From contig NZ_JABBYJ010000001.1 in the NCBI RefSeq assembly GCF_012932565.1, positions 124,001 through 188,000 on the forward strand: a DNA stretch of 64,000 nt. The letters are read 5' to 3'. Source of the DNA: Sneathiella limimaris. GTDB taxonomy: Bacteria; Pseudomonadota; Alphaproteobacteria; Sneathiellales; Sneathiellaceae. Below, in pieces: positions 60,343 to 64,000 of the stretch. The position numbers were made by a program, and so were the translations under genes. The notes below the pieces were generated by a model that was not told the origin of the DNA, did not search any database, and was given only the letters and a program-made list of their open reading frames with translations. How positions within the stretch are numbered: position 1 is the stretch's first letter; every line of letters starts with the position of its first letter.

Positions 60343-61194
60343 ATGAAGATTGACAGCCAATTAAAAACCAGACACAAGACTGATATGTTTGGCCTGTTTC
60401 CAAAAAAAAAGCTGCGTGTAAAACTGCCGGATAACACTCGCGTTATCGCGATCGGCGATATTCATGGTCAGCACAAACGGCTGAGTAAGCTCATGAAGGA
60501 GGTCGACCTTTATCGCAAGAAAAACCCCATTGACCATGAAACCATTGTTTTCCTGGGGGATTATGTCGATCGGGGACCGCACTCTGCGAAAATAATCGAT
60601 TATTTGCGAAAAAGAGCCAAGGCCGCCAAAACAGCTGCCCACACAGAAGTCTTTCTTCAGGGCAATCATGAAGAGCTCATGATAGAAGGTCTGGATGTTG
60701 AAGGAACTCGTCATGATCTTTGGTGGCGAAACGGCGGTTTGCAAACCGTGAACAGCTACCTCAAATTTTTAAAAATTGAAGTCCCTGAAGATTTAGGCGC
60801 TGAAGAACGATTGAATATCTTCAGAGAGCATTTCCCCAAGAAACATTCAAAATTTGTCCATTCATTGCAAAATATCTATCGGGTTGGGCCGCTGGTTTTC
60901 GCTCATGCCGGCATTCGTATGGACAAAGCCCCAGGCAAACAAAAGCAACAGGATCTTAGATGGATTAGAGATCCTTTTCTTTACTGGGAAGGAAAAAACA
61001 AGGACTTTCTGGTTGTCCATGGACACAGTATCACACCGTCTTTTAAGCCTGAAATCCATGCCCATCGAGTAGCCCTTGATACCGGAAGCTATAAATTAAA
61101 GGGTAAAATTACGGCTGGCATTTTTGAAGGAAACACTGTCCGGTTTGTCAGTAACGGAACCCGAAAAGGATTCAACACAAACAAATTCTCTTAG
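60343..61194 (+). CDS. PPP-type metallophosphoesterase (serine/threonine phosphatase-like)
   Basis: The 283-residue cytoplasmic protein has the five metal-site motifs in order: A-I-G-D-I-H-G-Q, L-G-D-Y-V-D-R-G-P, Q-G-N-H-E-E, F-A-H-A-G and V-V-H-G-H-S. These bind two metals in PPP phosphatases. Bacterial members dephosphorylate proteins or small molecules such as diadenosine tetraphosphate. The target is unknown. The start is the ATG at 60343 (a second ATG at 60385 is possible). It converges on the MFS gene with a four-base overlap of the stops. Confidence 0.88.
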   Translation: MKIDSQLKTRHKTDMFGLFPKKKLRVKLPDNTRVIAIGDIHGQHKRLSKLMKEVDLYRKKNPIDHETIVFLGDYVDRGPHSAKIIDYLRKRAKAAKTAAHTEVFLQGNHEELMIEGLDVEGTRHDLWWRNGGLQTVNSYLKFLKIEVPEDLGAEERLNIFREHFPKKHSKFVHSLQNIYRVGPLVFAHAGIRMDKAPGKQKQQDLRWIRDPFLYWEGKNKDFLVVHGHSITPSFKPEIHAHRVALDTGSYKLKGKITAGIFEGNTVRFVSNGTRKGFNTNKFS

Positions 61195-62366
61195 GAACCT
61201 TCCTGCTGTTGCTCATAGCGCCTGACTCTAATGAGAAGGATAGCGCCAAGAACTACCCCCAAGCCAGAACAGACCGCCATCAACAAAAAGCAACTTGCAG
61301 GGTTAAATTCATAGAGAGACCCCGCCAACATCGTAAGCAATCCGAAGAAGATCCCCATTGAAAGGCTATCCTGTAAGCCTTGTGCAGACGCTGAAATAGC
61401 AGGCGGAACCCGTTTGGCTACATAACCAACAATAGACATGTAAAGAAGTGCAAAAGTTAAGGCGTGAAAAAGTTGTGCGAGTACAAGTAGCGGCAAGGCT
61501 GTCACTGTAGCCAGAAGTGTCCACCGGATTACGCCGCCCGCTGCCGCGACAATAATCATGGGCATGGCACCAAAGCGTCCGATCAAACGATCAGAAACAC
61601 TAAACATAGCAATTTCCGCCAACACACCAACGATCCACAGAAGCGTGATCACTGTGTTGGAATAGCCCAGTGATTTCCAGTAAATCGCGCTAAATCCATA
61701 GAGCGAAGCATGCGACGCGAGAAGAAGGCCAACTGTGATCAAAAACAACGGAAAGTTTGGAAGTTTCAGCGGCCTCAAGAGGGGAACTTTTTTGGAGTCA
61801 GGTGCTGTGTAGACTTTCGGCACCCAAAAAGAGGCAATAAGAAGAAGAACCGATGCAAATATCATCATGGCGTAAATAGCGTCTAATCCGAATTTATCAG
61901 CTAATGCTCCCACCCCAAGTGAACTGACAATAAAACTAACCGACCCCCAGCGCCTTACCTTTCCAAATTCCACTCCGATCAACTGTCCAAGTCGTATGGT
62001 CACCCCATCTGACAAAGGCACACCTGTCGACAAGGCAGCACCAGCTAGCCCCCAAACAACAGCATAAAGCACCCAACCCTCAACAAACGGGAGAATAGCG
62101 AGCCCTATCAAAACCATTGAGGATAATGAGATTAAGACCCGCCGCCGATCACCGACCAGGTCAGCTACAGAAGACGCTATGGGGACCACCGCAACTTTCA
62201 ACCAATAGGCTACACCTAAAACAATCCCCACATATTCCAGAGAAATCTGCCCTTCCAACCACCTCGGCCAGATAGGTATGGCAATACCATACACTGCAAA
62301 AAAAGAGGCATAGTAACCTGTCAGCCTTAACGAGGCATTTTTGCTTGAATAATTGATCTGGTTCAT
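61191..62366 (-). CDS. MFS transporter, LacY/HcaT-like group
   Basis: The product (391 residues) is predicted to have 12 transmembrane helices and opens L-R-L-T-G-Y-Y-A-S-F-F-A-V-Y-G, the start seen in the phenylpropionate/nucleoside-symporter group (MFS_1-like). It probably moves a small organic acid or exports a toxic compound. The AGGTGG ribosome site fits the ATG at 62366. The frame is open to 62477, but that would run through the operator repeat. It is divergent from the nitroreductase-like gene, sharing its control region. Confidence 0.87.
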   Translation of the reverse strand: MNQINYSSKNASLRLTGYYASFFAVYGIAIPIWPRWLEGQISLEYVGIVLGVAYWLKVAVVPIASSVADLVGDRRRVLISLSSMVLIGLAILPFVEGWVLYAVVWGLAGAALSTGVPLSDGVTIRLGQLIGVEFGKVRRWGSVSFIVSSLGVGALADKFGLDAIYAMMIFASVLLLIASFWVPKVYTAPDSKKVPLLRPLKLPNFPLFLITVGLLLASHASLYGFSAIYWKSLGYSNTVITLLWIVGVLAEIAMFSVSDRLIGRFGAMPMIIVAAAGGVIRWTLLATVTALPLLVLAQLFHALTFALLYMSIVGYVAKRVPPAISASAQGLQDSLSMGIFFGLLTMLAGSLYEFNPASCFLLMAVCSGLGVVLGAILLIRVRRYEQQQEGS

Positions 62367-62450
62367 CGATCCACCTGCCGGAAGGATCCATAGCCTATCG
62401 GGTTTTAAACTCACCATCCAGTGATATTCGCTACACAAAACCATATTTAC

Positions 62451-62482
62451 ATTCTTTGGAATATATATACATTCCAAAGAAT
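62451..62482. promoter_or_regulatory. perfect 12-bp inverted repeat, probable MarR operator
   Basis: ATTCTTTGGAAT (62451-62462) and ATTCCAAAGAAT (62471-62482) are exact inverted copies around ATATATAC. Each arm is itself of the form ATTC-N4-GAAT. It lies between the divergent MFS and nitroreductase starts, about 85 and 20 bases away, and the local MarR gene is the obvious binder. Confidence 0.75.
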
Positions 62483-62501
62483 ATTTATGGAGGAAAATGC
62501 G

Positions 62502-63656
62502 ATGAATAGACGTAACTTTCTGAGAACAATTGGGGGAACCGGCCTCGTTTTAGCAGCTACAGCAGGTGGCCTAAGTCAATGCGATCAAATGCCCACTGAA
62601 GCAATTCAAGGCTGGAATGGTCCCGTTAATTCAATAACAGATAGGGAGTGGTTACTTTCATACGCCCTTCTGGCACCCAATCCACATAATATGCAGGCGT
62701 GGATCGCCGATTTGAGGGTTGAGGATCAAATAATACTTTTTGCGGACAAAGATCGATTACTACCTGACACAGATCCTTTTTCACGTCAGGTCATGATTGG
62801 TCAGGGGACCTTCTTAGAACTTTTGAGTATCGCTGCATCAGCGAGGGGATATCAAGCCAATGTGCACCTTTTCCCAGAAGGCACTCCCGATGAGATGGAA
62901 CTCGACATCTCAACGGTACCTATTGCCCGAATTGAGCTCGTCAAGAATGAGAATATAGCAGCAGACCCTCTCTTTTCTGCCATTTTGCACAGGCGCTCCA
63001 ACAAAGAAGGATATAGAGAGTTAGCTTTATCGGAAGATCACAAAGCCGAACTTCTGAAGTTACCTTTGTCAGGTGATCACTCAGTTCAAATCTATCACGA
63101 CAAGGATGAGGTGGAAGAACTGCGTACCTTTGCAAAACAAGCCATGCTGCTGGAAATTGAGACACCTCGAACCTTAAAGGAAAGTGTTGATAGAACCCGA
63201 ATTGGGGCTGACGCAATCGTTAAATACCGAGATGGAATTGACCTAAATGGCCCAATGTTTTGGTGGCTTTCTCGTTTCGACTTAATGTCCAAAGAAAAAG
63301 CCATGACACCCGGCACACTAGCCTATCAGGGCGGGATAGATTATGCCCTTGGCTGGGTGAATAAGACTTACAGCATGGGAATCCTATCTAGCCCAACAAA
63401 CAGTCGAGAAGATCAAATCATTGCAGGTCGCAATTATGTCCGGCTTAACCTACTCGCCACATCAATAGGTGTTGCTATGCATCCTGTTAGCCAAATTTTG
63501 CAGGAATACCCCGAAATGCAGACTCTACAATCCGATTTTTATTCCCATCTGGGTGTGAGGGCTCCTGAAACAATTCAAATGTTTTTCAGAATTGGATATC
63601 AGTCCAAACCAAGTCCTTCCCCTCGCCGACCTCTGCAAGATATAGTTAGGGCATGA
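62502..63656 (+). CDS. Tat-exported nitroreductase-like (Acg-family) protein
   Basis: The product (384 residues) begins MNRRNFLRTIGG, a twin-arginine signal with a hydrophobic stretch (about 10-25) and a Ser-Gln-Cys near 27 that might be a lipobox. The body is nitroreductase-like, with A-P-N-P-H-N-M-Q-A-W near 51-60 and L-H-R-R-S-N-K in the middle, as in Acg-type FMN proteins. It may bind or reduce a flavin-linked substrate in the periplasm. The ATG at 62502 follows GGAGG by eight bases. The MarR gene overlaps it by four bases (ATGA), so they are co-transcribed. Confidence 0.84.
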   Translation: MNRRNFLRTIGGTGLVLAATAGGLSQCDQMPTEAIQGWNGPVNSITDREWLLSYALLAPNPHNMQAWIADLRVEDQIILFADKDRLLPDTDPFSRQVMIGQGTFLELLSIAASARGYQANVHLFPEGTPDEMELDISTVPIARIELVKNENIAADPLFSAILHRRSNKEGYRELALSEDHKAELLKLPLSGDHSVQIYHDKDEVEELRTFAKQAMLLEIETPRTLKESVDRTRIGADAIVKYRDGIDLNGPMFWWLSRFDLMSKEKAMTPGTLAYQGGIDYALGWVNKTYSMGILSSPTNSREDQIIAGRNYVRLNLLATSIGVAMHPVSQILQEYPEMQTLQSDFYSHLGVRAPETIQMFFRIGYQSKPSPSPRRPLQDIVRA

Positions 63657-64000
63657 CAAAGAACCACAAACCAGACATTCCCATTGAATTCCGGATTATT
63701 AACTGGATAGGCATTATTGACCAGCTGACGGGAACAAAAGCCCGTCAGTTGCTCAATGGCACAGATGTACCGCCGCCCCAATTTGCGCTTCTCAATCATT
63801 TCAGCCATCGCCCCGAAGAGGGTAAGACTGTCATGCAGGTTGCGACCGCCATGCAACAACCCCAACCAGGGATCACAAAAACGATATCCAAGTTGGTGAG
63901 GAAAGGTTTTTTAGAAGAGCATAAAAACCCAAGAGATGGCCGTTCAAAAATTCTATTGCTAACAGCAGCGGGCATAAAAGCGCATCAGATTGCCCGGGAA
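63653..64000 (+). CDS. MarR-family transcription regulator, 3' end beyond the window
   Basis: The first 116 codons are present from the ATG at 63653 and the frame runs off the right edge. A winged-helix domain is visible: P-P-P-Q-F-A-L-L-N-H-F, the recognition helix Q-P-Q-P-G-I-T-K-T-I-S-K-L and the wing N-P-R-D-G-R-S-K-I. It overlaps the nitroreductase-like stop by four bases. It is the likely repressor acting on the 62451-62482 repeat, with release by a small ligand. Confidence 0.88.
   Translation, partial: MTKNHKPDIPIEFRIINWIGIIDQLTGTKARQLLNGTDVPPPQFALLNHFSHRPEEGKTVMQVATAMQQPQPGITKTISKLVRKGFLEEHKNPRDGRSKILLLTAAGIKAHQIARE

Follow-up and report, generated by a model that had tools for sequence, protein, structure and literature searches.

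We analysed a 64,000-nt stretch of a Sneathiella limimaris contig (the window; the genome comprises 3,658,464 bases), concentrating on two genes near its end. The first encodes a nitroreductase-like protein of the Acg family with a twin-arginine translocation (Tat)-type leader (384 aa, 62502-63656, plus strand). The second encodes a MarR-family regulator (152 aa, plus strand) whose ATG overlaps the nitroreductase stop codon (ATGA) and whose reading frame, 63653-64000 within the window, is cut by the window end and stops 111 bases past base 64000. Comparison of the sequences indicates that both genes very likely form a single autoregulated operon with two sites for MarR dimers, release by a ligand, an exported product, and a DNA-binding specificity that has changed from lineage to lineage. 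We regard the system as a MarR pair with autoregulation and a textbook layout because the dyads described below are tied both to the nitroreductase-MarR operon and to the recognition helix of its MarR.

A preliminary description of the window had reported a flawless 12-bp inverted repeat in the divergent gap upstream of the nitroreductase gene, with ATTC-N4-GAAT arms and 20 bases between their centres, and this was confirmed. Dyad 1, the proposed MarR site I (ATTCTTTGGAAT, 62451-62462), and dyad 2, the proposed site II (ATTCCAAAGAAT, 62471-62482), are exact reverse complements with a centre-to-centre distance of 20 bp; the extended arms of 16 nt are 94% complementary, and each 12-mer on its own is an imperfect dyad. 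The pattern ATTCN4GAAT-N8-ATTCN4GAAT occurs at one place only in the genome. Across the 25 whole genomes of the family comparison set, the looser pair ATTCYNNRGAAT-N6..13-ATTCYNNRGAAT gave seven matches, one each in seven genomes and every one preceding this nitroreductase-like gene, and the reversed-pattern control gave none in the same genomes. The significance of the repeat comes from this specific pattern and from the relatives, not from the generic tandem-dyad score, which did not reach significance when only the window was considered (p = 0.116).

The intergenic region was compared among 12 Sneathiella gaps (the window and 11 relatives) plus a 13th, partial locus (L113). All 13 loci with the nitroreductase gene carry at least one ATTCN4GAAT, two dyads being present in seven and one in six, at an expected count of about 0.005 per 200 bp. 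Dyad starts are 28-58 bp away from the ATG of the nitroreductase. The consensus AY-ATTCCWWGGAAT-RT, derived from 34 sites (19 loci, of which 12 are from Sneathiella and 7 from elsewhere), describes a conserved unit that occurs singly or doubly, in the -35/-10 spacer and with the second copy near the transcription start. Only in the window are the two copies exact inverses of each other. Each of the remaining six loci with two dyads has a copy 2 that departs from the inverse of copy 1 at one to three positions, L025 among them with an exact direct repeat of one 12-mer. When the repeat was sought in orthologous loci, as the preliminary description had suggested, the dyads themselves were thus found throughout while their perfect inversion was not conserved. 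On these alignments, the perfect inversion of the window copies is incidental.

A sigma-70-like promoter of the operon was predicted at 62446-62473 on the plus strand (TTTACA, 16 nt, TACATT; 9/12). This call is weak alone, because 0.7 such sites were expected in shuffles for the one found, and the hexamers are weak in many loci; several relatives with better hexamers have similarly placed promoters. Dyad 1 lies between the -35-like and -10-like hexamers and is conserved in relatives, and dyad 2 covers the expected transcription start and stops 6 bases short of the ribosome-binding site read from the sequence (GGAGG, 62489-62493, plus strand). In L078 and L071, which have good -35 and -10 hexamers, dyad 1 likewise occupies the spacer, with dyad 2 located after the -10 element. 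The arrangement, with its promoter hexamers predicted only, resembles that of marO in Escherichia coli, where site I is reported to occupy the -35/-10 spacer and site II to lie close to the start of translation (PMC3920692). The nitroreductase-MarR operon and E. coli marRAB are alike in their two-site layout, the MarR dimer sites being predicted here, and in having an activator site upstream, a marbox in E. coli mar and a CRP-like site in most Sneathiella loci. The nitroreductase-MarR operon differs from mar in its operator sequence, its Tat-leader Acg-family target and the lack of MarA, and, unlike marRAB, it displays operator turnover across lineages. The CRP-like site, (T/C)GTGA-N6-TCAC, was observed in 8 of 12 Sneathiella loci (L023-L029, L031), starting 19–20 bp upstream of dyad 1 in a class II-like position; none is present in the window, L021, L022 or L030, and in L028 the dyad at the CRP-site distance is degenerate.

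Beyond the genus, we searched 385 alphaproteobacterial genomes with a nitroreductase profile (E ≤ 1e-40) and obtained matches in 43, four of them Sneathiella and 39 others. A same-strand MarR gene lies directly downstream in 33 of the 39 non-Sneathiella loci, mostly with two dyads 20–21 bp apart. We then scored dyad pairs of any sequence upstream of 53 loci, 47 with and 6 without an adjacent MarR, against 500 shuffles. A tandem pair at p ≤ 0.05 was found in 35 of the 47 loci with MarR and in one of the six without (L092), where MarR is not visible because the locus is cut by a contig end; the other five had no such pair, L073 being nearest (p = 0.060). Among the 35 loci with p ≤ 0.02, 25 had a dyad spacing of 20 or 21 bp. 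By this sequence comparison, the nitroreductase-MarR pair is a two-gene switch common to many alphaproteobacteria. As separate observations, L096 has a single long AT-rich palindrome rather than two dyads before the gene pair; the Sneathiella genome G015 carries, elsewhere, a distant nitroreductase-MarR pair (L032, 26% identity) with another operator class; and in L064 the MarR frame is seemingly broken, possibly by an assembly error, with both dyads intact.

The dyad sequence changes together with the recognition helix of the adjacent MarR. Helices QPGITKT or QPAMTKT occur with dyad ATTCCNNGGAAT, TKGAMTN with GTTYAACGTTRAAC, PPAVTKT (L063) with TTTCCNNGGAAA, and both PKT(T/S)MTH and RATMTN with CGATATCG, the RATMTN loci L074 and L075 being weak matches. 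Further dyad sequences are present in L093 and L072. L032 and L164 combine a TKGAMTN helix with GTTYAAC dyads, whereas the other loci seen from the family of L164 are of the ATTCC class. On a MarR tree of 46 rows, from which L064 was left out and in which L032 was labelled 'other', the dyad class required 6 changes compared to 23.6 in shuffles. A fragment of the L064 MarR was retained in the MarR alignment and in the profile derived from it.

This correspondence was evaluated on a hold-out of 81 new loci, comprising 76 of 77 new places (the dropped one is a fragment) and five further loci; L165 had too little upstream DNA, leaving 80 scored. The rule as written called 55 loci, 51 of them correctly (49/53 in class C, 1/1 in class A and 1/1 in class B). 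Another 24 loci remained uncalled because the helix motif was too narrow; these scored as CGATATCG in 19 cases, ATTCC in two, GTTYAAC in two and none in one. The remaining locus, which lacks MarR, had no dyad pair. When all 79 helices were read afterwards from the alignment, agreement amounted to 72/79: if the residue before the helix hydrophobic position was T or S, the operator was CGATATCG in 68 of 75 loci, G went with ATTCC (3/3), and A with GTTYAAC (1/1).

Taken together, we propose that a MarR dimer would bind each 12–16-bp dyad, site I filling the -35/-10 spacer and site II covering the transcription start. The two sites would be about two helical turns apart on the same DNA face, and their positions suggest that RNA polymerase is excluded when both are occupied. 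As is usual in the MarR family, a small molecule would release the repressor from the DNA. The product would be exported folded by way of its twin-arginine leader, probably with bound flavin, and might act on or trap an aromatic or redox-active compound on the periplasmic side, which is the weakest step. MarR specificity would have shifted between lineages, operator and recognition helix together, with the two-site geometry retained. For the nitroreductase-MarR promoter, this agrees with the preliminary description, which had envisaged one or two MarR dimers on the repeat; the repeat looks like an operator for two.

Several observations weigh against this model. No significant generic pair was detected in 12 of the 47 loci with MarR; of these, six belong to Sneathiella and nevertheless contain ATTCN4GAAT, and L032, scored from a wrong start codon in that test, carries a pair with the corrected start, but L068, L074, L075, L077 and L096 stay weak. 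Within Sneathiella, the six single-dyad loci lack the second site, and four genomes keep MarR beside the divergent transporter gene without a dyad; hence, MarR may have another target. Among the hold-out MarR loci, four had no significant pair and three were nearest another class (GTTYAAC). Moreover, the class labels track phylogeny and a single order contributed 76 of the 80 hold-out loci, so the loci are not independent, and two origins of the CGATATCG operator class were not supported when tested (approximately unbiased test, p = 0.22). We word the broadest interpretation tentatively, as a possibility somewhat short of an even chance: the loci might represent a natural experiment in MarR specificity across the class, in which one conserved gene pair uses at least three unrelated operators within a fixed two-site geometry, each switch is accompanied by matching changes at a few recognition-helix residues (G with ATTCC, A with GTTYAAC, T or S with CGATATCG), and the operon controls a periplasmic Acg branch working without NAD(P)H, which would account for Acg proteins that look like nitroreductases yet have little such activity.

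The perfect inversion of the window copies might imply that the repeat acts as one structure, either an RNA hairpin or a single large palindromic site. We consider this extremely improbable and rejected it, as the inversion is not conserved: the other two-dyad loci deviate from it and six loci have only one dyad. In addition, near-palindromic copies appear inverted by default, and dyad 1 is located upstream of the expected transcription start. That a regulator other than the adjacent MarR binds the dyads is also quite improbable. The CRP-like site adjoining dyad 1 in 8 of 12 Sneathiella loci means that other regulators may act there. However, dyad pairs occurred only with an adjacent MarR (in none of the five loci without it where the downstream side is visible, nor in the corresponding hold-out locus), and the dyad sequence follows the recognition helix of the adjacent MarR in new genomes.

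A further alternative concerns the divergent gene for a major facilitator superfamily (MFS) transporter (391 aa, 61191-62366, minus strand), separated from the nitroreductase gene by 135 bp. The preliminary description had considered the repeat ideal for MarR to block both promoters and had taken the nitroreductase and the MFS protein to suggest a small-molecule sensing and detoxifying unit; in this alternative, one operator would control all three genes as a sensing, detoxifying and transport unit. Where a divergent gap is short, one repressor is able to act on two promoters. In addition, the MFS gene diverges from the operon at every one of the 13 Sneathiella loci that have the nitroreductase, MarR remains beside it in four genomes lacking the adjacent nitroreductase, and the MFS_1 family was matched by 2 of 29 upstream neighbours scanned outside Sneathiella. 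Nevertheless, the MFS gene is present in 21 of the 25 family genomes and lacks an adjacent nitroreductase in eight (four keep MarR, four have neither), and none of these eight Sneathiella genomes has an ATTCN4GAAT within 400 bp upstream of the MFS gene. Under independence, the contrast of 13/13 to 0/8 has a chance of 5e-6, which is a rough guide only since the loci are related. The dyads stay close to the nitroreductase ATG throughout Sneathiella, whereas 85 bp separate the MFS ATG from the nearer window dyad, and a consensus promoter scan of 62340-62540 revealed no promoter-like site on the minus strand. In other families, ATTCN4GAAT occurs (L006, L062, L064-L067, L092) where the Sneathiella MFS profile matches nothing nearby; this profile had matches in none of the 39 non-Sneathiella loci. 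By sequence, the dyads go with the nitroreductase-MarR operon and not with the divergent MFS gene. Joint control of the MFS gene was rejected, as this gene is found in eight genomes without the adjacent nitroreductase and then without the dyad; we regard it as unlikely, and the transporter is a neighbour that is probably outside the regulatory unit.

Returning to the nitroreductase-MarR operon as a self-contained switch, the gene identities given in the preliminary description were borne out by the Tat-type leader and by matches to NF047509, PF12802 and, for the MFS gene, PF12832. The nitroreductase-like protein begins with MNRRNFLRT, the twin arginines being residues 3–4, and an N-terminal RR was counted by eye in all 53 loci (L032 with the corrected start). 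Its best named match is a protein of Sneathiella sp. HT1-7 (62% identity). Residues 51-382 match NF047509, the Acg family, with 225.6 bits (cut-off 199); a Pfam scan at E 0.001 gave no match, and MsAcg (2YMV) was the sole PDB profile match at the same threshold. 2ymv was also the best fold match (E 2.4e-14, template modelling score 0.71 by target, 364 columns, 23% identity, root-mean-square deviation 5.7) of a predicted structure that reached a predicted local distance difference test score of only 70.9 and was poor at residues 1-36 and 223-255. By sequence comparison and predicted fold, the protein is Acg-like. All 12 Sneathiella rows have Cys27, and 11 of the 12 have Asp28 (window 62580-62585). 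Some rows read LTGC or LASC at Cys27, which we take to be lipobox-like; from this motif, the protein may be a membrane-anchored lipoprotein.

To our knowledge, NAD(P)H is not at hand for periplasmic enzymes; therefore, the protein would use another electron donor, or bind rather than reduce its target. It shares family NF047509 and fold with Acg of Mycobacterium tuberculosis (Rv2032) and M. smegmatis (MsAcg), but carries the N-terminal twin-arginine leader and has a MarR partner, acg being instead under dosR. In one study, nitroreductase activity in lysates did not differ between an M. tuberculosis acg mutant and the wild type (PMC3110807). For the Acg family, which is poorly understood, the comparison suggests a branch that operates outside the cytoplasm and has its own control by a small molecule; its substrate would then be searchable via inducers of the promoter. 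A plasmid search yielded only distant relatives, none above 32% identity among 20 of the 26 records.

For the regulator, the portion within the window scored 46.8 bits against 27 for PF12802, and the profile matched the structures of MexR, MepR and MarR. In Bacillus YodB-YodC and related MarR/DUF24-nitroreductase pairs, a MarR-type repressor controls a nitroreductase-like gene and senses quinones or diamide via a cysteine. The present pair is similar in coupling a MarR-type gene to a nitroreductase-like gene, but, unlike the cysteine-sensing YodB, the window MarR contains no cysteine and hence not the reactive one of OhrR/YodB-type regulators; among 47 MarRs, 35 have none and 12 have one. At the MFS-MarR gap of L107-L110, four genomes that lack the nitroreductase at this place, the MarR helix is kept and the upstream region is different, without ATTCN4GAAT; a -10-like TATAST ends 6 bases before the MarR ATG, as for a leaderless message. 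A search for a wider regulon in the four MarR-only genomes returned 20 ATTCCNNGGAAT sites. Of 16 examined, 14 were inside open frames exceeding 150 codons; just two site pairs could be aligned between these genomes, both of them inside such frames, and a wider regulon was not found.

A literature search, with most subscription journals outside its reach, returned no operon of a Tat-leader Acg-family gene with marR and none of these operator sequences. From the sequences compared, the circuit itself is of an ordinary kind; the gene pair is widespread and apparently undescribed, and its record of operator-repressor co-variation is unusually clean. For dozens of uncharacterised MarR proteins, it predicts the DNA sites from sequence, and the matched repressor-operator pairs provide a ready set for studying how MarR proteins choose their sites.

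Neighbouring genes were surveyed as a functional clue at 40 loci, seven of which were dropped because the gene caller had lost the nitroreductase. In the remaining 33, 29 upstream and 23 downstream neighbours were scanned; 4 upstream and 10 downstream ones were skipped (near-copies, contig-edge pieces, loci without MarR, poor calls), and some gene calls were poor. No family matched more than three neighbours, the commonest being short-chain dehydrogenases (3/23 downstream), MFS_1 and GNAT (2/29 upstream each). The top-scoring curated model for the MFS neighbour in the window was PRK11128, the HcaT-type 3-phenylpropionate transporter, with 233.5 bits; as its cut-off is 259, an HcaT-type substrate was not assigned. 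Converging on the MFS gene is a gene for a calcineurin-like phosphoesterase (PF00149, 60343-61194), relatives of which are also located near the MFS gene in L021, L022, L030, L105, L106, L111 and L112.

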